A stretch of DNA of 64,000 nucleotides from Terriglobia bacterium. Its GTDB lineage: Bacteria > Acidobacteriota > Terriglobia > Acidiferrales > UBA7541. The first letter of the stretch is position 1. The number at the start of each line of letters is the position of its first letter. Below, in pieces: positions 19,267 to 58,815 of the stretch. The stretch is taken from NCBI GenBank assembly GCA_020073485.1, contig JAIQFB010000001.1, positions 248,001 to 312,000 on the forward strand, written 5' to 3'. A program made the translations under genes and the position numbers. The notes beneath the pieces were generated by a model, which made no database searches, was not told where the DNA came from, and was given only the letters and a program-made list of their open reading frames with translations.

Positions 19267-19352
19267 TGTCATTCCGAGCGAAGCGAGGAATCCCTCCTTC
19301 TCTTACTCTTAACAAATTCACAGAGGGATTCCTCGCTTCGCTCGGAATGACA
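19267..19352. repeat. Palindromic repeat family A: perfect 30-bp inverted repeat
   Basis: Two perfectly complementary 30-base arms (19267-19296 and 19323-19352) flank a 26-base AT-rich loop. The arms begin TGTCATTCCGAGCG and carry the AGCGAAGCGAGG core. Related copies are at 28861-28939 and 44458-44546, with a half copy near 32785-32802. Here it separates the OppF-like gene from tgt, where it could end transcription. Confidence 0.9.
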
Positions 19353-49955: not shown

Positions 49956-51368
49956 ATGCTCAATTACCTCGAACGTCAGACCACGCTGACCGGAAATCAA
50001 CGCCGGATTATCGCCGCCGCCGTGCTGGGCGACATGCTCGAGTTCTTCGACTACTTCCTCATTGGATATGTGGTGGCCTTCATTGCCGGGCCCTGGAAGC
50101 TCACCTTCGGCGAATCGGCCGTCATTCTCCTTTCTTCGGGATTCGGGGCCATGTTCGGCGCCGTCTTTTACGGATGGCTGGCGGACAAGATCGGCCGCCG
50201 CAAAGTTTTTCTTATGACGGTGATCAATTTTTCGATCGCCACCGGCATTCTGACGTTCACTCCCGACAACGCCTGGATTTTTCTCTCGGTTTTCCGGTTC
50301 CTGATCGGATTTGGCGTGGGGGGCTTGTATTGCGTTGACCTTCCCCTTGTCCAGGAATTTGTCCCGGCCTCAAAGCGCGGCATGGTGGGAGGCCTGGTAA
50401 CCGCCGCTGTGCCCATCGGAGTCCTCCTGGGGGCCGCTTTGGGCGCTTACGCTACGCCCTATGTGGGCTGGCGAGGGCTTTTCGCGATCGGCATGGTGCC
50501 CGGGCTGCTCACCCTGTTGATTCGCGCCTGGGTCCCGGAATCGCCCCGATGGCTCATCCAGATGGGGCGGGTGGACGAAGCCCGCAAATCGCTGGCCTGG
50601 GCCTTGGAAATACAGCCAGACGCCTTGCCATTGAGCGCGCCAGAGGGGCAGAGGCTGCCAGTGTCCCGGCTTTCGGACATCTTCCGGTACCCGCGAAGCC
50701 TGGCCGTCTCCTGGATAGCCAATCTAGGGGCGCAAACGGGCTATTACGGGCTTACTTTGTGGGTTCCGACACTGCTGGTGCAACTGTTGGGCATAACTCC
50801 CGCTCGGGCGTCGTATCTTCTTATTTTTGTTAACTTTGCAGGTTTATTTGGGCGGATCGGCCTCTCCTACCTGTCGGATGCGATCGGCCGAAAGCCGTCC
50901 GGCGCCATCGCGAGTTTTGGTGCCGCGATCCTGATGATTCTGGCCGCCATTTATCACAACGTTTTCGTCGGCGGCGTATCCCTGTTTTGGCTGCTTCTTA
51001 TTGTAAACAATGCCTTTGCGGATGGAGGGTTCGCTATCGTGGGCCCCTACTCGGCCGAAGTTTGGCCCGTGGCCCTGCGGACTACCGGAATGGGTTCCGC
51101 TTACGGGTTCGGCGGTCTGGGCAAGGTGATCGGGCCGCTGGGGCTGGCGCTCATCGTTGGTTCTTCCAACATCATTACGCCAAAGGCGTCGGTCGCGGCG
51201 CTCTTTCCGGCCTTTACCTACCTGGCTTGTTTTTTCGCCATGGCAGGGCTCGCCTATATGTTTATCGGGATGGAAACAAAGGGCCAATCGCTGGAAACAA
51301 TCGAGCAGGCTTTGGACGCGGGCAGGTCGCCTGCATTGGAATCTGCCAAGACCGAAGAACAACGCTGA
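49956..51368 (+). CDS. MFS transporter (sugar/organic-acid symporter-like)
   Basis: A 470-residue inner-membrane symporter with twelve helices. The TM2-3 loop has GWLADKIGRRKVF; the central loop begins PESPRWLIQMGRVDEARKSL, the sugar/aromatic-acid porter signature; the second half repeats YLSDAIGRKPSGA. The helix-1 sequence DMLEFFDYFLIGYV resembles aromatic-acid:H+ symporters. The ATG at 49956 starts close to helix 1; no good ribosome-binding site. Substrate unknown; it is next to a dehydrogenase and a cyclase-family hydrolase that could process an imported acid. Confidence 0.88.
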   Translation: MLNYLERQTTLTGNQRRIIAAAVLGDMLEFFDYFLIGYVVAFIAGPWKLTFGESAVILLSSGFGAMFGAVFYGWLADKIGRRKVFLMTVINFSIATGILTFTPDNAWIFLSVFRFLIGFGVGGLYCVDLPLVQEFVPASKRGMVGGLVTAAVPIGVLLGAALGAYATPYVGWRGLFAIGMVPGLLTLLIRAWVPESPRWLIQMGRVDEARKSLAWALEIQPDALPLSAPEGQRLPVSRLSDIFRYPRSLAVSWIANLGAQTGYYGLTLWVPTLLVQLLGITPARASYLLIFVNFAGLFGRIGLSYLSDAIGRKPSGAIASFGAAILMILAAIYHNVFVGGVSLFWLLLIVNNAFADGGFAIVGPYSAEVWPVALRTTGMGSAYGFGGLGKVIGPLGLALIVGSSNIITPKASVAALFPAFTYLACFFAMAGLAYMFIGMETKGQSLETIEQALDAGRSPALESAKTEEQR

Positions 51369-51435
51369 TTGCCATTTGCCTTACGCAGTTGTCCTCCACT
51401 CTTCATATGTGAAATCCATTGGGTGCGTGGGAAAG

Positions 51436-51471
51436 TTCCAGTAGCACAGGCTGAAGCCTGTGCTACTGGAA
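51436..51471. repeat. Palindromic repeat family B, perfect 36-base copy between convergent genes
   Basis: TTCCAGTAGCACAGGCT and its exact complement are separated by GA. It lies 67 bases after the transporter stop and ends 1 base before the stop codon of the convergent dehydrogenase gene. Position and symmetry suit a two-way terminator. Confidence 0.85.
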
Positions 51472-51472
51472 C

Positions 51473-52363
51473 CTACTTCCGCCGCCGCGGATTGTTGGCC
51501 ATCTTTTCGAGCACGGCGCACACGGCTCCGGTATCTTCCGCGCCCAGGCCCATGGCCATCGCCGCGGTATAGAAGGGCGCGCTGGCTGACAACAACGGCG
51601 TCGGGCAATTGATCTTCCGCGCGTAGTCCCCGATGATGGTCATGTCCTTCTGCCAGGTCTGCACCTTCATGGTGGCTTCGGAATAATCTCCCTTCACCAT
51701 CATCGGGCCGCGCAATTGCAACATGCGCGAACTTCCCGCTCCGTCCGCCACCACTTTCAATACCAACGCGGGATCGAGCCCCGATTTCATGGCCAGCACC
51801 ATGGCTTCGGCGGCGGCCACGTTGTGAATGGCCACCAGCAGGTTCGCGACAAATTTTACTTTCGAGCCCGCGCCAAACGCACCGACGTAGTAATGCGCGC
51901 GCGCAAAGCCCTCCAGCACCTTGGCGGTGCGGCGGTAAGATTTCCGGTCGCCGCTCGCATACACGATCAGATCCTTGACGCGCGCCTGCGCGCCCGTGCC
52001 GCTCAGCGTGCAATCCAGCAGAATCGCGCCGCGCGCCGCGAGGCGATCGCGGGCTTCTTCCTTCGCCGGGATCGGCAGCGTGCTGGTCTCCACGACAATC
52101 TGATTGGCTCGCGCCGATTGCGCCAGTTCCGCCGCGATGTCCAGCAGCGCCTGGGCCGACGGCAGGGAAGTCACCAGGATGTCGCAGCGCTTGACCACTT
52201 CCCGGCAGTTCCGCGCGACACTTCCTCCCGCCTTGCGATGGCTCTGAAGGGCTCGCGGGAGCACGTCATAGCCCACCACTTGGAATCCTGCCTTCATGAG
52301 ATTGGCCGACATGGCCGACCCCATGATGCCCAGCCCGATCATGCCCACAGGTTTTGAATCCAT
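51473..52363 (-). CDS. NAD(P)-binding 3-hydroxyisobutyrate dehydrogenase-family protein
   Basis: A beta-hydroxyacid dehydrogenase of 296 residues with the dinucleotide motif VGMIGLGIMGSAMSANL, a substrate-binding region TLSGTGAQA (usually SGG) and a helical C-terminal domain with GAGSKVKFVANLLVAIHN, in which the catalytic lysine is kept. The ATG at 52363 follows AAGGGA; the frame is open further upstream without support. Substrate unknown. The gene is convergent with the MFS transporter. Confidence 0.88.
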   Translation of the reverse strand: MDSKPVGMIGLGIMGSAMSANLMKAGFQVVGYDVLPRALQSHRKAGGSVARNCREVVKRCDILVTSLPSAQALLDIAAELAQSARANQIVVETSTLPIPAKEEARDRLAARGAILLDCTLSGTGAQARVKDLIVYASGDRKSYRRTAKVLEGFARAHYYVGAFGAGSKVKFVANLLVAIHNVAAAEAMVLAMKSGLDPALVLKVVADGAGSSRMLQLRGPMMVKGDYSEATMKVQTWQKDMTIIGDYARKINCPTPLLSASAPFYTAAMAMGLGAEDTGAVCAVLEKMANNPRRRK

Positions 52364-52557
52364 GGTTTCCCTTTCTATTTTTGCCGCAGCAGGTGAAATG
52401 CAATGCGTTACTCTAGCAGAATGCTTCGCCGCCGTAAGAAAGTTACGCCGGAATTCTCCGCTTCGGCACAAAAAGACCCTGCTGTCCGGAAGAATTTCTC
52501 ATGGTATCGTATTCGTTTGCGCGAATGCTTTTAACTCTCCCGTGAGGATTGCGGCCC

Positions 52558-53520
52558 ATGACCAAACCGAATGACAAATTGACGCTCCAGGATATTCAAA
52601 ATACATCCGAACGCCTGAAGAATTGGGGGCGCTGGGGCGCCGATGACGAAGCCGGCACGCTCAACAATGTTTCGCCGCAGGATATCGTCAACGCCGGCCG
52701 CCTGATCCGCAAAGGGAAAGCCTTTTCGCTGGCGCTGAATTTTGACAGCAACGGGCCGCAGAGCGGCATGTGGGGCAATCGCTTCAATCCGATCCACACC
52801 ATGATTGCGACGGGCACTGACGCCGTCGCCGGCCGCCAGGAATCCATCAAAATCCGCTACGCCGACGACATGGTCACCATGCCGCTGCAGTGCGGGACGC
52901 AATGGGACGCGCTCGGCCACATCTTTAACGGCGAAAAAATGTGGAACGGCTACGACGCGCGACTGGTGGACGCCAACGGCGCGCAAAAGAATGGCATTGA
53001 AAAGGTAAAAGACAGAATGGTCGGCCGCGGCGTGCTTCTGGACGTGGCACGCTTCAAGGGCGTGGACTCGCTCGAAGACGGCTACGGCATCGGCACCGAA
53101 GAGCTGGAAAAATGCGCCGCCGCCCAGGGCGTGGAAATCCGCAAAGGCGATTTTGTCATCTTCCGCACGGGGCACATGGAGCGCTGCCTGAAGGCGGGCT
53201 CGTGGGCGGGCTACGCGGGCGGAAACGCCCCCGGCCTGCATTTTGAAACCGCCGAGTGGATTCGGCGCACGGACATCGCCGCGATTTGCGCCGACACCTG
53301 GGGCTGCGAGGTCCGCCCCAACGAAACCGACGTCGCCCAGCAACCCTGGCACTGGGTGGTCATCCCCATGATCGGCATCAGCATGGGCGAAATTTTCTAC
53401 CTGAAAGACTTGGCCGAGGACTGCGCGCAGGACCACGTCTACGAATTCTTTTTCTGCGCCCCGCCGCTTCCAATTACCAAGGCGGTCGGGTCGCCCGTCA
53501 ACCCCATCGCAATCAAGTAG
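52558..53520 (+). CDS. Cyclase/kynurenine formamidase-family hydrolase, Gln variant of the metal motif
   Basis: A 320-residue protein of the cyclase superfamily. The canonical motif HxGTHxDxxxxH appears as Q111-CGT-Q115-W-D117...H122, with both leading histidines replaced by glutamine. Other family features are kept: FRTGHMERCLKAGSWAGYAG, ETAEWIRRTDIAAICADTWG and the late HWVVIPMIGISMGE. Glutamine variants of this kind seem to form a subfamily (recalled, not checked), so activity cannot be ruled out. The ATG at 52558 has GAGGAT upstream. Role unknown. Confidence 0.82.
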   Translation: MTKPNDKLTLQDIQNTSERLKNWGRWGADDEAGTLNNVSPQDIVNAGRLIRKGKAFSLALNFDSNGPQSGMWGNRFNPIHTMIATGTDAVAGRQESIKIRYADDMVTMPLQCGTQWDALGHIFNGEKMWNGYDARLVDANGAQKNGIEKVKDRMVGRGVLLDVARFKGVDSLEDGYGIGTEELEKCAAAQGVEIRKGDFVIFRTGHMERCLKAGSWAGYAGGNAPGLHFETAEWIRRTDIAAICADTWGCEVRPNETDVAQQPWHWVVIPMIGISMGEIFYLKDLAEDCAQDHVYEFFFCAPPLPITKAVGSPVNPIAIK

Positions 53521-53541
53521 GCATCCGGCAAGAATGTTTGG

Positions 53542-53604
53542 ATTGGTGGGCCTGGGTAGACTTGAACTACCGACCTTCCCGATCTGATCGGGACGCTCTA
53601 GCCA
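53542..53604 (-). repeat. Duplicated 3' part of tRNA-Ile (tRNA relic, direct repeat)
   Basis: Bases 53542-53576 are identical to 53847-53881 (35 bp: CCA end, acceptor 3' strand, T arm and part of the variable loop of tRNA-Ile). After a 17-base spacer in both places, CGCTCTAGCCA (53594-53604) matches again. The 17-base spacer is the anticodon arm; here it has a different sequence but still forms a perfect 5-base stem and 7-base loop. The 5' acceptor strand is absent, so it cannot be a normal tRNA. It forms the distal border of the GIY-YIG gene. Confidence 0.9.
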
Positions 53605-53836
53605 GCGCTTCAATGTAGCCCCGGCTTTTCATGCTTTTCACTTCACGTTCCCGCCGCATGGCATCAGATCGAGTCGGATACTCTTCTGAATGGAAAAGAA
53701 CCCAAGGCCCTCGATTCCTGGTCGATGGAGTCCGCTTATTGTTGTGTTCAAGGATTCGCTTGGAGAGATTTTCTGTGTGACCAGTGTAAAAGCGGCCTGT
53801 ACTTTCACTTTGCAGCACGTAGAAGTAATAGATCAT
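53567..53836 (-). CDS. Small GIY-YIG nuclease-domain protein inside a tRNA-Ile duplication
   Basis: An 89-residue single-domain GIY-YIG protein (YhbQ/UPF0213-like size). It has YYFYVLQ, then GRFYTGHTENLSKRILEHN with the catalytic-type arginine, and a downstream glutamate in RREREVKSMKSR. The start is ATG at 53836, only 12 bases after the CCA end of tRNA-Ile, with no ribosome-binding site seen, so it is probably expressed from the tRNA promoter. The last residues (ARASRSDREGR) and the TAG stop are encoded by the duplicated tRNA segment. The gene plus one repeat copy makes a 305-base unit. Mobility is inferred from the direct repeats. Confidence 0.85.
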   Translation of the reverse strand: MIYYFYVLQSESTGRFYTGHTENLSKRILEHNNKRTPSTRNRGPWVLFHSEEYPTRSDAMRREREVKSMKSRGYIEALARASRSDREGR

Positions 53837-53848
53837 GAGGGGAATTAT

Positions 53849-53925
53849 TGGTGGGCCTGGGTAGACTTGAACTACCGACCTCACCCTTATCAGGGGTGCG
53901 CTCTAGCCACCTGAGCTACAGGCCC
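53849..53925 (-). tRNA. tRNA-Ile (anticodon GAT), CCA encoded
   Basis: Reading the minus strand, GGGCCTG pairs with CAGGCCC, the D arm has GCTC/GAGC, the anticodon stem CACCC/GGGTG encloses CTGATAA (anticodon GAT), the T arm is GGTAG-TTCAAGT-CTACC, and ACCA ends it at 53849. All four arms fold. It is outside any rRNA operon in this window and carries a GIY-YIG gene at its 3' side. Confidence 0.95.
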
Positions 53926-53956
53926 AACACAACTTAGGCTACCAACTGTGTCGAAC

Positions 53957-53986
53957 ATCATAACGGGCGGGAGAGCGAGGGGTCAA
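53957..53986 (-). promoter_or_regulatory. Sigma-70 promoter of tRNA-Ile
   Basis: On the minus strand TTGACC (53986-53981) and TATGAT (53962-53957) are 18 bases apart, 31 bases before the tRNA 5' end. This is one of the best promoter matches in the window and should also drive the GIY-YIG gene. Confidence 0.7.
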
Positions 53987-54064
53987 GTCGAGAGCCTGCC
54001 TGAGGTAAATTCATGTCAGCCAACATCTGGCGGGTTCCACAATCTGCTACAAGAGAAACAACGA

Positions 54065-54085
54065 GGGCCTGCACCCGGCAGGCCC
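54065..54085 (-). terminator. Probable terminator of the small secreted protein gene
   Basis: GGGCCTGC and GCAGGCCC pair around a 5-base loop, 25 bases after the stop of the minus-strand gene at 54110, and are followed on that strand by TCGTTGTTTCTC, a weak T-rich tail. Confidence 0.55.
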
Positions 54086-54109
54086 CCTGAATCAAACTTC
54101 TCTACAGCC

Positions 54110-54580
54110 CTACTGCTTGTCCCAATGCGTCTCGTTATTCAAAGTCTTACCGTCGGGCAGGATTCCCTTGGCCACGATCTCCAGCGTCTTTCCGTCCTTG
54201 GAGACCGTGAAGGTTGTTGATTCGACTACCTTTCCGGCCTTCGTGAAAGTTGCCGTCATCTTGTTGGCGCCTGCCTTTTTGGAAGTGATCTTGTCCGATC
54301 CGTTCGGGATCGCACCCATGGTCGGATACTCTTTTCCATCCCCATTGATCGTGTAGGAGTAGCCTGTGGTCTTCCCGGCAGCGTTCACGCCCGTAATGTT
54401 CACGCTTCCGTCTGCGTTCCAGGTGCGCGATTGGCTCTGCGGCGGCGGTCCCGGATCGAATTTGGATGCCGCTACGTTCAGCTTCCAGGTCCCCACGAAC
54501 GGGTTGCTCTGGGCCAGTACCAGGCTTCCGGCGGCCAGAACCATGATGCAGACTGCAAGAATCGATAGCTTTCGTTTCAT
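54110..54580 (-). CDS. Small secreted beta-rich protein, function unknown
   Basis: The 156-residue protein has a signal peptide (MKRKLSILAVCIMVLAAGSLVLAQ) shortened here to its core LAVCIMVLAAG, then a lipocalin-like start (NPFVGTWKLNVAASKFDPGP) and repeated beta-strand pairs. The GTWKLN...KF pattern recurs in small exported acidobacterial proteins (recalled, not checked); the role is unknown. The ATG at 54580 follows GGGAG; the frame upstream to 54766 is not likely coding. Confidence 0.72.
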   Translation of the reverse strand: MKRKLSILAVCIMVLAAGSLVLAQSNPFVGTWKLNVAASKFDPGPPPQSQSRTWNADGSVNITGVNAAGKTTGYSYTINGDGKEYPTMGAIPNGSDKITSKKAGANKMTATFTKAGKVVESTTFTVSKDGKTLEIVAKGILPDGKTLNNETHWDKQ

Positions 54581-54772
54581 CCTTACTCCCCTTTGCTTTC
54601 TATTTGGATCCAAATGATTTGGAACGATACGCCGGAGATTACGCCGGGCGCGCGGCAACGTCAAGCGCCGCAAAGCCAGGTTGGACGTAAGATACCCGAT
54701 CCGCTTGAGGGGCCGCCGCCCGGTAGCGTATGATTCATCGGCGGGGATCAGCGCGGAATGGCGCATTAAACC

Positions 54773-55384
54773 ATGCTCACACGCAAAATCGGAGAGGGCG
54801 GGCGCTGGCTGCTCGAGAAGATCGTGGACGTGGTCGCCTCCACCGGCATCAACCCGAACTTGCTCACCTTCTTCGGGCTGCTGGTGAATTGCTGGGCGGC
54901 GGTTATGTTCGCACTGGGAAAATTCCGCGCCGGCGCCATGATCATTTTCTTCGCCGCATTCCTGGACATGCTCGACGGGCAGGTGGCGCGCCGCGAGAAG
55001 CGCGTGACCGCCTTCGGCGCATTTTTCGATTCCACCCTGGACCGCTACTCGGACATGGCGCTGTACATGGGATTGCTGGTGTATTACGCGCAGGCCGGAC
55101 GGGGGTCCTACGTGATTCTGGCGGCGGTGGCCACGGCCGGATCGGTGATGGTCAGCTATTCGCGTGCGCGTGCCGAGTCGCTGATTCCCCTGTGCAAGGT
55201 GGGATTCATGGAGCGTCCCGAGCGAATGGTCCTGCTCATCCTGGGCGGATTATTCAATCGCATGGCGCCTGCGCTCTGGGTCATTTCCGTGGTGGCCACC
55301 CTTACGGTCATTCACCGCATCTTTTTCACCTGGCGGGAAACCAAGGCCGGCCGCACGCTGCCGGGAATCCGCCTCTCGCTGTAG
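54773..55384 (+). CDS. CDP-alcohol phosphatidyltransferase
   Basis: A membrane enzyme that joins CDP-diacylglycerol or a similar CDP-alcohol to an alcohol acceptor. The 203-residue protein has the full signature D-G-x2-A-R-x8-G-x3-D-x3-D, read as DGQVARREKRVTAFGAFFDSTLDRYSD shortened here to DGQVAR, FGAFFD and DRYSD. Several helices follow. The acceptor (inositol, glycerol phosphate or other) cannot be told. It is convergent with the acyltransferase gene, 16 bases away, and probably works in the same lipid route. Confidence 0.88.
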   Translation: MLTRKIGEGGRWLLEKIVDVVASTGINPNLLTFFGLLVNCWAAVMFALGKFRAGAMIIFFAAFLDMLDGQVARREKRVTAFGAFFDSTLDRYSDMALYMGLLVYYAQAGRGSYVILAAVATAGSVMVSYSRARAESLIPLCKVGFMERPERMVLLILGGLFNRMAPALWVISVVATLTVIHRIFFTWRETKAGRTLPGIRLSL

Positions 55385-55400
55385 TTCATTTCCTGACAAC

Positions 55401-56210
55401 TCAGTTTTTTTGCGATGCATCACGCGCTTCATCAATCGGCCGCGAAATAATGGCGTGCACGCGGTCGCGCAGCGCCGGAACATCTTCCTTGCGCAGGTCC
55501 TTCGTTTCGATCACATCGTGCAAATATACCGTCACGGTTCCCGGACGCAGTAGCCAGCTGGTTTTCTTGTTAAATTCAAACGCTCCCACCACGCTCACCG
55601 GCACGATCGGCGTTCCGAACTGCAGCGCCATGCGGAACACGCCGTCCTTGAACGGGCCCACGCGCCCGTCGCGCGTTCGTTGCCCCTCGGGAAACACGGC
55701 CAGGCTCACTCCGGAATCGATCGCCGCGCGGCTCAATCGCCACATGCGCTTCAAGTCCGAGGGGCGGTTCTGGTCCGGCACGGGCACGTTGCCGAAACGT
55801 TTCATCATCCAGCCATACACGGGAATGCGGAAGTGCGATTCCAGCTCCAGCCCGCGGAAAAATTGCGGAATCGTGGCATAGAGCACGAAGGGATCGAACA
55901 GGTTGACGTGGTTGACCAGGAAAAACACATTCCGCGCGGGATCGAATCCCGGCGCGCGCCGCACCACCAGCTTCGCTCCTGCAAGCTTCATGGTGACGCG
56001 GCAGAGCATCCGCTGCGCGCCGTCATTCTTGCGCGGATCGACGAATATCCCCAGCAGCACCAAAAAACTGCACACCGGAAAAAAATACGCCGCGCAGAGC
56101 AGCCAGCGGTACGTGCTGCGCACAATCGCCCACGCGCGCCGCGCGCCTCGTTCGCCGGGCGATCCGGTCGCCGCGGGAACCGCCACCTGCTGTCCGCTTT
56201 CGCCGTTCAT
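55401..56210 (-). CDS. 1-acyl-glycerol-3-phosphate acyltransferase-like (PlsC family)
   Basis: A membrane-associated acyltransferase of 269 residues with motif I NHVNLFD (NHx4D), motif III FPEGQRTRDGRVGPFKDG and VPVSVVGAFEF near the end. One or two helices are near residues 35-55. Its start overlaps the end of the diacylglycerol-kinase-like gene by 4 bases. It is the last gene of a run that begins beyond the right edge of the window. Confidence 0.88.
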   Translation of the reverse strand: MNGESGQQVAVPAATGSPGERGARRAWAIVRSTYRWLLCAAYFFPVCSFLVLLGIFVDPRKNDGAQRMLCRVTMKLAGAKLVVRRAPGFDPARNVFFLVNHVNLFDPFVLYATIPQFFRGLELESHFRIPVYGWMMKRFGNVPVPDQNRPSDLKRMWRLSRAAIDSGVSLAVFPEGQRTRDGRVGPFKDGVFRMALQFGTPIVPVSVVGAFEFNKKTSWLLRPGTVTVYLHDVIETKDLRKEDVPALRDRVHAIISRPIDEARDASQKN

Positions 56211-57103
56211 ACCATCACGTCCATCGCACCGGGGAGCACTTCGAGCGATTCCACTTCCAGCGTGAGCACTTCGCCGTCCACCACAACGTCGACGGGGCCC
56301 TTCAAATCGAATTCGATGCGGGACGCCGTGCGGCGCGACGCCAGCCTGTGTTTCATGTGCGTCCCGTCAAATAACTTCGGCAGATTGCGGATCAATCCCA
56401 ACCGCCCGATCGGCCCCCAATGCACATATTCAATCGTCCCGCTGTCGACGGCCGCGTCCGGCGCGATCATCATTTTACCGCCGGTATACTTGCTGTTGCT
56501 GAAGGCCACGAACAGGCAGCGGCGGACGTCGCTCTCGCCATTGGCGCGCAAAGGAAACGGCCGGCGCCGCAGCCGCGCCAGCGAGACCAGCACGCCCACC
56601 AGATAGCCGAACTCTCCCAGAAATTTCAAGCGGCGATTGGTCAGCGTGGCAACGTCCGCCGCGAATCCCATATTCAGCGTGTTGATGTAAAAAAGCGATT
56701 CTCCCGCGTGGTTGAGCTGAATGACGTCGCAGGGCCGCCTGCGATGCGCGAGGATGGCTTCAATAGCGTACTCAGCTCCTCGATCGGTGAAATCGCGCAG
56801 GAAAGAATTCCCGGTTCCCAGCGGGAGGAATCCAAGCGCGGCGCGCCCGCCGGTGAGCGCGGCAGGGAACACACCATTGACGATCTCGAAGCCCGTGCCA
56901 TCGCCTCCCACGGCAATAAAATTGCGATAGCCTGCCGCGTAAGCCTCATGCGCCAGAATCGTGGCTTCACCGGGGGCGCGCGTCTCGCGCACTTCCAGCG
57001 CCATGCCCGCGGCGCGCAGCCGCTCGAGCGCCGCCGGAGCAAGTTTTCCGCAGCGCCCCCCGCCCGCCGCCGGATTCACGATCGTGAAATAGGTTTCGTT
57101 CAC
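56207..57103 (-). CDS. Diacylglycerol/sphingosine kinase-family lipid kinase
   Basis: The 298-residue protein has the DAGK catalytic features: VNPAAGGGR at the start, [13 protein letters not shown] and [13 protein letters not shown], then a C-terminal beta domain ([17 protein letters not shown]). The likely reaction is phosphorylation of diacylglycerol or a related lipid alcohol. It overlaps both neighbours by 4 bases, so it is translated with the acyl-ligase and the acyltransferase. Confidence 0.9.
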
Positions 57104-58815
57104 AGGGAAACCATCGCACTGCGGTCCAGATGCTTGCCGATTTCTTCTGCGAGCACGGCGCGCCTGATTTTCATGGCGGCGTTGCGCGGGAAGTCCTGGT
57201 CCCAGACGATATAGCCGCTGATTCGCTTGTAATTCAGGAGCAGCCCGTTGCGCCGGGAAATTTCAGCGCGTAAAGCGTAGTCCACCACATGGCCCGGCTC
57301 GGGACGAATCACAAGCAAAAGTTGTTCCCCGGTCATGGTGCGCTGCGGCCACACATAATTGGCCGCGAAGATGCAAAATTCTTTTACGGCTATACCTTCG
57401 TAAGTGTTTTCGATGTCCTCGGGATAGATATTTTTCCCCTCGGCGGTGACGATCATGTTTTTCTTGCGCCCGAAAAGCTGCAAGTGGCCTTCCGCGTTGA
57501 CGCGGCCCAGGTCGCCGGTCATCAGCCAGCCATCCACCAGTGTTTCCGCGGTTAATTCCGGCTCGTCGAGATAGCCCGACATCACCGTCTTGCTTCGCAC
57601 CGCCACCTCGCCTACACCGTCGGCGTCCGGCGTAATAATACGAATCTCCATCCCTCTCACGGGTCTGCCGACCGTTTCTGGCCGGAAAGGCTTGAGATCG
57701 TTGAGCGTGATCGCTGTGCACGCTTCCGTGCAGCCGTATCCGTTGTAAATCGGAATGCCGAGATCGTGAAAAAATTCCATCAAGGTCGGCTCTGTAAATG
57801 CGCCGCCCACGAGCAAGGCGCGAAGCTCCCCGCCGAACGCCTTGTGGATATCCTTCAGGAGGATTCGGCTAAGCCCGAGCCGCGGCTGCTGCTTGGTGCA
57901 CGCGCGATTCAGCGCGATTAGCAGATCGAGCACACGCCGCTTGCCCGCCGGAAGCGCCGCGAATCTCTCCTTCAATCCGCGCTGCAGATTTTTCAGGATC
58001 AGTGGCACCACCGCCATGTACGTGACTTTGTAACGGGTGAATGCCTCACGGATAAATTCCGGCCGCAGCGTTCGCAAGTGGATTACGGCGCCTCCGCCAG
58101 TAAACGGCATGATGAATCCGCCCATGAAATCGATCGCATGATTTGTGGGAATGATGCTCAGGTAACGCGAGCCAGGACAAAATGGAAACACCGGCGAGAC
58201 CGCCCCGCACTGTTCCAGATAATTTTCATGCGTCAGCACGCACCCGCGAGGATGGCCGCCGGTGCCGGACGAATACACGATGCATGCCATATCGATCCGC
58301 AAGCGAGGCCGGAATTCCGGCGCACGGTCCGCATGGAAATCTTCCCAGCGCTGGGCGCTCGCGAGATCGGCGTTCGGCGGGGCCTCCGTCACCAGTACCT
58401 TGCGCAACTGATGCTCTTGAAACGAGGGCGATTGGGTGATGGCGCGCCACAGCGGGTATTCCACGCACAGCACTTGCGCCTTGGAATGCGCCAGCAATTG
58501 CAGATGCTCGGCGGCGGAGAGTTTGTAATCGAGCGGCACGACGACGCCGCCGGAAAAAAACACGGCGTACGCCGAGATCAGCCACTTGGGCTGATTGGTC
58601 ATGATGATCGCGGCGCGGTCCCCGGCCGCAAATCCGGAATCCTGCAGAGTCGCCGCCAGCGGTTCGGCCGCCTCCTGGAATTGCCGGTAGGTGAGGCGCG
58701 ACTTCTCCCGCTCACGGTCGGCCTCGATCAGGCAGACTTCGTCCGGCCAGCGCGCAAGGGCATCGCGGAGCGCCGCTCCCAGCGATTCGTATTTCGTCAG
58801 GTCGAGCATACCCAT
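57100..58815 (-). CDS. AMP-dependent acyl synthetase/ligase (first copy)
   Basis: An ANL-superfamily enzyme of about 571 residues that activates a carboxylic acid as acyl-AMP. The P-loop is [15 protein letters not shown], with arginine in the usual lysine place; YNGYGCTEA and [11 protein letters not shown] follow, and the catalytic C-terminal lysine is in [11 protein letters not shown]. The start is one of GTG 58821, ATG 58815 or ATG 58809; none has a clear ribosome-binding site. The adjacent carrier protein suggests loading onto ACP rather than CoA (inference). Confidence 0.88.

Follow-up and report, generated by a model that had tools for sequence, protein, structure and literature searches.

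Small GIY-YIG nuclease genes beside bacterial tRNA genes, with hairpin-bearing pseudo-tRNAs: a candidate homing cassette

A GIY-YIG nuclease gene of 89 codons lies directly behind a tRNA-Ile gene and ends inside a second, hairpin-bearing copy of the 3' part of that tRNA. The same architecture recurs at other tRNA genes, where the nucleases cluster by tRNA isotype, filled and empty versions of a site occur, and a hairpin takes the place of the anticodon arm in the copy. We infer that the nuclease cuts tRNA genes and that the cassette moves. It is somewhat probable that the unit is a free-standing homing-endonuclease cassette dedicated to one tRNA isotype, which would enter at the anticodon arm and carry the displaced tRNA half. 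The findings suggest that such cassettes are little-noticed selfish DNA that breaks and at once repairs a tRNA gene. The hairpin-bearing pseudo-tRNA, the clustering of the nucleases by isotype and the mirror form described below are absent from the original prediction for this DNA.

The tRNA-Ile locus and its nuclease

The window is the whole 64-kb stretch of DNA that was analysed, taken from a genome of 5.05 Mb. The only tRNA called in it by ARAGORN is tRNA-Ile(GAT). The parts of the cassette all lie on the minus strand:

53849..53925, minus strand: intact tRNA-Ile(GAT), called by ARAGORN, with a cloverleaf-like RNA fold and a cassette-free counterpart in five congeners
53837..53848, minus strand: leader of 12 nt from CCA to start codon, without a Shine-Dalgarno-like motif
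53567..53836, minus strand: GIY-YIG nuclease ORF, 89 aa plus stop, its last codons within the pseudo-tRNA
53594..53604, minus strand: D-arm-like bases of the pseudo-tRNA, also coding, from the 63-nt repeat at 84%
53577..53593, minus strand: perfect hairpin of a 7-bp stem and a 3-nt loop, in place of the anticodon arm
53542..53576, minus strand: copy of the tRNA 3' part (T arm, acceptor 3' strand, CCA and 2 nt), identical to the tRNA

The tRNA-Ile is presumed to be both the target and the restored host gene of the cassette. ARAGORN and a Pfam match to PF01541 (E = 3.3e-15) confirm the original prediction of a tRNA-Ile ending at 53849 and an 89-residue GIY-YIG ORF 12 nt past its CCA. The predicted 35-base identical repeat (53542-53576 and 53847-53881) with the ORF end inside it is likewise present; the ORF starts with ATG at 53836, and its stop codon (53569-53567) falls within the second copy of the tRNA 3' part. 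Similarity extends more widely over 63 nt at 84%, the tail bases are identical in 33 of 33 positions, and the stretch that differs between the two copies is the 17-nt perfect hairpin (53577-53593) at the anticodon-arm position. The RNA folding energy of this hairpin is -9.3 kcal/mol (z = -2.65); in the fold of the pseudo-tRNA region both the hairpin and the T-arm pairing are retained. Sequences of the form TCCCG-n-CGGGA are not enriched across the window (4 found vs 2.39 expected), enrichment being limited to the pseudo-tRNAs. A group I or other tRNA intron, which would split the mature tRNA and need splicing, does not fit, the tRNA-Ile being called uninterrupted. Between the repeats lies the GIY-YIG ORF alone, with no integrase gene, and no integrase was found among the ORFs at 50000-58000 when their translations were judged and four Pfam scans were run. 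The same genome holds a second, decayed copy behind a tRNA-Arg(ACG) (L004), which persists without a pseudo-tRNA.

The protein is nearly all GIY-YIG domain and lacks a separate DNA-binding domain. The core residues Y6, Y17, G19, R27, H31 and E63, which we take to have the catalytic roles of the GIY-YIG core, are invariant across 10 rows; the domain and the conserved residues place the protein in the GIY-YIG superfamily, and the I-TevI-like architecture, with a DNA-binding domain after the GIY-YIG domain, is not present. The closest solved sequences are the UPF0213 proteins 1zg2 and 1ywl. A fold search with an AF2 model (pLDDT 85.5, pTM 0.75) matched UPF0213 1zg2 (E = 9.1e-6), Slx1 (7cq3; E = 3.8e-3, TMq 0.70) and, weakly, I-TevI (E = 0.82). 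A search of NCBIfam returned a group I intron endonuclease below threshold and nothing else, and a search of PHROGs returned no match.

Distribution, pseudo-tRNAs and site occupancy

PF01541 was searched in 89 genomes of the window's family, excluding UvrC-sized frames and one 276-aa UvrC-like fragment. The matches listed comprise 110 deduplicated GIY-YIG domains of 60 or more residues; rows aligned over a shorter stretch, among them the decayed L004, L068 and L074, were dropped from this set. Among the matches listed, 32 of the 110 rows lie within 100 nt of the end of a same-strand upstream tRNA (28 of them within 25 nt), 12 have the start of a same-strand tRNA no more than 230 nt downstream, and the other 66 have no tRNA within these limits. 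In L105, counted among the 32, the pseudo-tRNA-Met with its hairpin is itself called as a tRNA by ARAGORN. By a rough estimate from about 50 tRNAs in 5 Mb, a random gene would start within 25 nt of a tRNA about once in 10,000 cases; 28 of 110 is therefore not chance, and the expected tie of a GIY-YIG subfamily to tRNA 3' ends is borne out. The placement of the ORF behind a tRNA after a short leader also holds; 29 of 30 leaders in the family are 1-19 nt long, and none of the 30 has a Shine-Dalgarno-like motif. The tRNAs adjoined are Ile, Arg, Ala, Val, Gly, Pro and Asn, with Met, Lys, Trp and Leu adjoined at greater distance or in the mirror form. By a hand tally that includes decayed copies, 21 of 89 family genomes have a copy that begins within 25 nt of the end of a tRNA. 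Homologues lying mostly away from tRNA genes had been named as evidence against the cassette; 66 of the 110 listed do lie away, yet 43 of these belong to one separate clade, and none of the 43 begins within 25 nt after a tRNA.

This tRNA-free sister clade (L002, L028, L108, L117 and others) is flanked by a dispersed palindromic repeat of the GTCATTCCGA type. The repeat lies at most 400 nt from 39 of the 43 loci, on both sides in 32, in mixed orientations; it was found near 0 of 30 tRNA-type cassettes and at 5% of random window places, a background taken from one genome. Within the window it occurs at 19267/19339, 28860/28927 and 44457/44534. The association is like the REP/RAYT partnership.

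On a tree of the 110 rows (81 columns, few forks well supported), the context labels need 22 changes vs 43.1 when shuffled, a value as low in 0 of 200 shuffles; the clustered labels are Ile, Ala, Val, Arg, Gly and Trp. On a tree of 89 rows that includes 42 loci from other groups, the amino-acid labels need 29 changes vs 65.3 (0 of 200). Asn nucleases from Verrucomicrobiota, Planctomycetota and Acidobacteriota form one group on the latter tree, and Pro is the least clustered of the large groups (8 changes in 10 rows, 27 of 500 shuffles as low). Such clustering ties the nuclease itself, or else its history, to a single tRNA.

A GTDB scan was made with patterns from tRNA-linked seed proteins, and fractions among its best 80 of 185 relatives are not unbiased. 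These best 80 comprise 19 family loci and 61 outside the family. Of the 61, 42 are tRNA-linked, 29 by a tRNA no further than 100 nt upstream and 13 by one no further than 230 nt downstream; the remaining 19, some of them at contig ends, lack a tRNA within these distances. Rows linked to tRNA come from 17 named phyla. A phage or plasmid gene was rejected as an explanation, the matches amounting to two plasmid records, one phage record (E 1e-5 or better) and eight IMG/VR loci. Two IMG/VR contigs classed as viral carry cassette-like loci, one with an Arg tail repeat of 40 nt (L261) and one with a 90-nt repeat that includes a TCCCGAT hairpin (L262); both contigs may be chromosomal fragments.

For the hairpin and tail-agreement counts, ten-odd GTDB duplicates of family loci were taken out by hand. 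The pseudo-tRNA was analysed at 68 deduplicated loci whose upstream tRNA lies no more than 100 nt away, and a match in at least 24 of 33 bases counted as a tail copy. A tail copy lies downstream in 44 of the 68, and none is recognisable at this threshold in the other 24. In 43 of the 44 loci that have the copy, start-to-start spacing is 297-380 nt, in agreement with the predicted unit of nuclease plus one repeat. A perfect hairpin of at least 6 bp at the anticodon arm, sought in the 49 nt ending just within the tail copy, is present in 37 of the 44 vs 2.91 expected from shuffles. Nineteen of the 37 hairpins start with TCCCG, and very similar stems occur in distant groups. The seven hairpin-less loci include both Gly loci, where inspection revealed a palindrome that overlaps the tail and lies partly beyond the tested stretch. 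The upstream tail and the pseudo-tRNA tail of a locus differ by 18 mismatches in total over 27 loci (0 of 5000 permutations as low), an agreement far exceeding that between loci of the same tRNA. With tails near-identical within each locus, a foreign, donor-derived tail is not visible.

Identity between both copies continues for 6-15 nt past the CCA in 5 of 32 loci, the tandem copies L075 and L243 excluded. Its interpretation as a target-site duplication is weakened by L067, which has a decayed second ORF start behind its pseudo-tRNA; the identity runs on into this start, so that nested or tandem cassettes explain at least L067. Tandem or nested copies are present at L075, L006 and L018, and the tRNA-Ile of L017 is inverted. 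After their pseudo-tRNAs, L022 and L013 have a common sequence, TTGTCCAGCCC..GAGAC..GGGTAACAG, that resembles the end of another repeated element.

In the mirror form, a copy of the tRNA 5' part with a hairpin or palindrome precedes the ORF and the intact tRNA follows it. Of 14 loci tested, 6 have this form (two Arg, two Met, one Lys and one Trp); the 5'-part copy is absent in the remaining 8, which are all Trp and comprise every Trp locus except L012. The Arg hairpin pattern has 19 occurrences in 13 of 89 family genomes and none for the reversed control. Nine Arg-hairpin loci were inspected, two being views of one place. Pseudo-tRNAs stand on both sides of the tRNA and ORF in three places (G049, G050, G054). 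A repeat where the ORF is missing had also been held to count against the cassette, and two loci, L301 and L315, do carry a hairpin-bearing pseudo-tRNA-Arg upstream of a tRNA gene with no detectable GIY-YIG ORF; they are read as relics or ORF-less derivatives. The tRNA of L315 is read as His(ATG) by ARAGORN.

Occupancy was compared at 22 of 30 tRNA-Gly(TCC) loci fetched, some of which ended at contig ends or met another gene. Two of the 22 are filled (G079, G039). In the empty site of G041, of the same genus as G039, the tRNA-Gly runs directly into 50 nt and then tuf; in G039 those 50 nt up to tuf come after the pseudo-tRNA tail, with 45 of 50 identical by eye. Filled and empty versions of one site are thus present at tRNA-Gly/tuf, and the match of the flanks identifies the cassette plus one tail as the inserted unit. 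The native flank sits behind the downstream tail, and both tails are alike within loci. In G037 the distance from tRNA-Gly(TCC) to tuf is 352 nt, vs about 50 nt in three congeners; the place where relatives carry the GIY-YIG cassette is taken there by another insert (L274), which has a 97-aa ORF. After tRNA-Ile, inspection of six copies from five congeners revealed no cassette, one copy (L161) having just 108 nt before the contig end. Sites thus lie empty in relatives at the tRNA-Gly/tuf of G041 and, as far as the inspected sequence extends, at the tRNA-Ile of five congeners. The upstream flank of the congener tRNA-Ile resembles that of the window in four congeners and not in G085; the post-CCA flanks are unalignable by eye with the window's downstream flank and gave no empty-site match. 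The search for an empty L067 site in its genus gave, in G030, a tRNA-Ile followed by a decayed ORF start, and unrelated flanks at the other copies inspected.

Homing and its alternatives

If the unit homes, the nuclease would cut a cassette-free tRNA gene in or near the anticodon arm, and repair from a cassette-bearing copy would insert the nuclease gene, the hairpin and one tRNA tail by gene conversion. The homology would be the tRNA itself, with resolution in the common tail, so that entry could be independent of the flanking DNA; the hairpin position points to the anticodon arm as the junction. The tRNA 3' part borne by the cassette would complete the host tRNA on the left, and the displaced native tail would remain on the right as a pseudo-tRNA with the hairpin as its anticodon arm. 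The ORF would be co-transcribed with the tRNA from the tRNA promoter, and the hairpin may keep the right-hand copy from acting as a tRNA or as a target. Against homing, the intact tRNA should be a target for the nuclease too, the two tails of a locus are so alike that no imported one stands out, the protein has no DNA-binding domain and matches I-TevI weakly in fold, the downstream flank of the window cassette gave no empty-site alignment, 24 of 68 loci are without a tail copy and 8 Trp loci are without a 5' copy.

The main rival is a hairpin-directed mechanism, which is considered unlikely. A structure-specific nuclease would act on the hairpin as a cruciform or single strand, as TnpA-REP or IS200/IS605 do on palindromes, and the tRNA tail repeat would be a by-product of insertion. 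The close likeness of the stems across distant groups (TCCCG at the start of 19 of 37), the branched-DNA nuclease Slx1 among the best fold matches, the palindromic repeats within 400 nt of 39 of 43 sister-clade loci (both sides in 32) and the ORF-less hairpin copies L301 and L315 are all consistent with it. However, clustering by isotype requires that something of the tRNA sequence be recognised, the hairpin is internal to the tRNA copy and not at both ends of most units, and to our knowledge no GIY-YIG enzyme joins DNA.

A broader reading, entertained here as rather unlikely, is that small GIY-YIG nucleases form a general bacterial class of palindrome-partnered mobile genes with a tRNA branch and a repeat branch. 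One branch would build hairpin-bearing pseudo-tRNAs in tRNA genes, isotype by isotype; the sister branch would mobilise dispersed palindromic repeats, as RAYT does for REPs, by an unrelated chemistry.

That nuclease and pseudo-tRNA are a functional pair, a toxin or defence acting on the tRNA or its gene with the pseudo-tRNA RNA as decoy or regulator, is improbable. In its favour, the ORF runs into the pseudo-tRNA, which still pairs in its T arm, folds with the hairpin and matches the nuclease in isotype. Against it, the distribution is patchy (copies within 25 nt of a tRNA end in 21 of 89 genomes), decayed copies like L004 persist without a pseudo-tRNA, and we know of no GIY-YIG ribonuclease. 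Least credible are relics of integrase-type elements that have kept a single cargo gene. Such elements classically attach at tRNA 3' ends, and the direct repeat looks like attL/attR, but the unit is uniformly small over many phyla, the hairpin recurs where the anticodon arm should be, mirror forms have 5'-part copies, the nuclease lineages cluster by isotype, and the translations of the ORFs at 50000-58000, with four Pfam scans, revealed no integrase.

If the homing reading is true, the tRNA genes of many bacteria house selfish nucleases near the minimum size for such enzymes, and a unit of about 300 bp breaks an essential gene and supplies the repair without integrase, intron or transposase. 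It would account for odd proteins whose ends are read from tRNA sequence, for extra tRNA-like fragments that trip annotation programs and for some tRNA duplications. Nature would also supply in these cassettes very small nucleases for a range of tRNA isotypes, and target recognition by an 85-residue domain would become testable.

Comparison with known systems

The literature covered on bacterial GIY-YIG enzymes and tRNA genes, with subscription papers and preprints largely outside its scope, describes no such cassette, and the accessible sections of the GIY-YIG survey by Dunin-Horkawicz (PMC1564403) hold nothing on one. UPF0213 and other small GIY-YIG proteins (1zg2, 1ywl) have the same fold and size as the window protein, and the accessible descriptions of these matches mention no tRNA-linked cassette. 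REP/RAYT systems (TnpA-REP), so far as the available excerpts describe them, likewise combine a single nuclease-type gene with palindromes, but the enzyme family is different and association with tRNA is not part of REPs.

Closer in target is SegB, a free-standing GIY-YIG enzyme that, according to the available text, breaks DNA within phage tRNA genes, and for enzymes of this type the donor allele is said to be cut poorly (PMC13096335). In the portions available of PMC2988022 and PMC13096335, SegB and other free-standing GIY-YIG enzymes of T4-like phages likewise have the nuclease gene beside tRNA genes, but the cut sites of free-standing enzymes are placed there hundreds or thousands of bases from the gene, and SegB had no isotype preference in a survey, whereas the present cassettes cluster by isotype. 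Compared with SegB as there described, the cassettes occur in cellular chromosomes of many phyla, encode about 85 aa and include a pseudo-tRNA with a hairpin.

Closer in layout are the mobile ORFs of fungal mitochondria (Glomus/Rhizophagus, Allomyces), in which, by the accessible part of PMC3630166, an inserted endonuclease ORF brings a substitute 3' end and the displaced native 3' end stays downstream, as is proposed for the cassette. They differ in that they occupy protein-coding mitochondrial genes and are mostly LAGLIDADG, with GIY-YIG in atp9, and that part of the source describes no hairpin-bearing copy (PMC3630166). On the best reading of these comparisons, the cassette would resemble phage SegB in its target and the fungal mitochondrial mobile ORFs in its layout.
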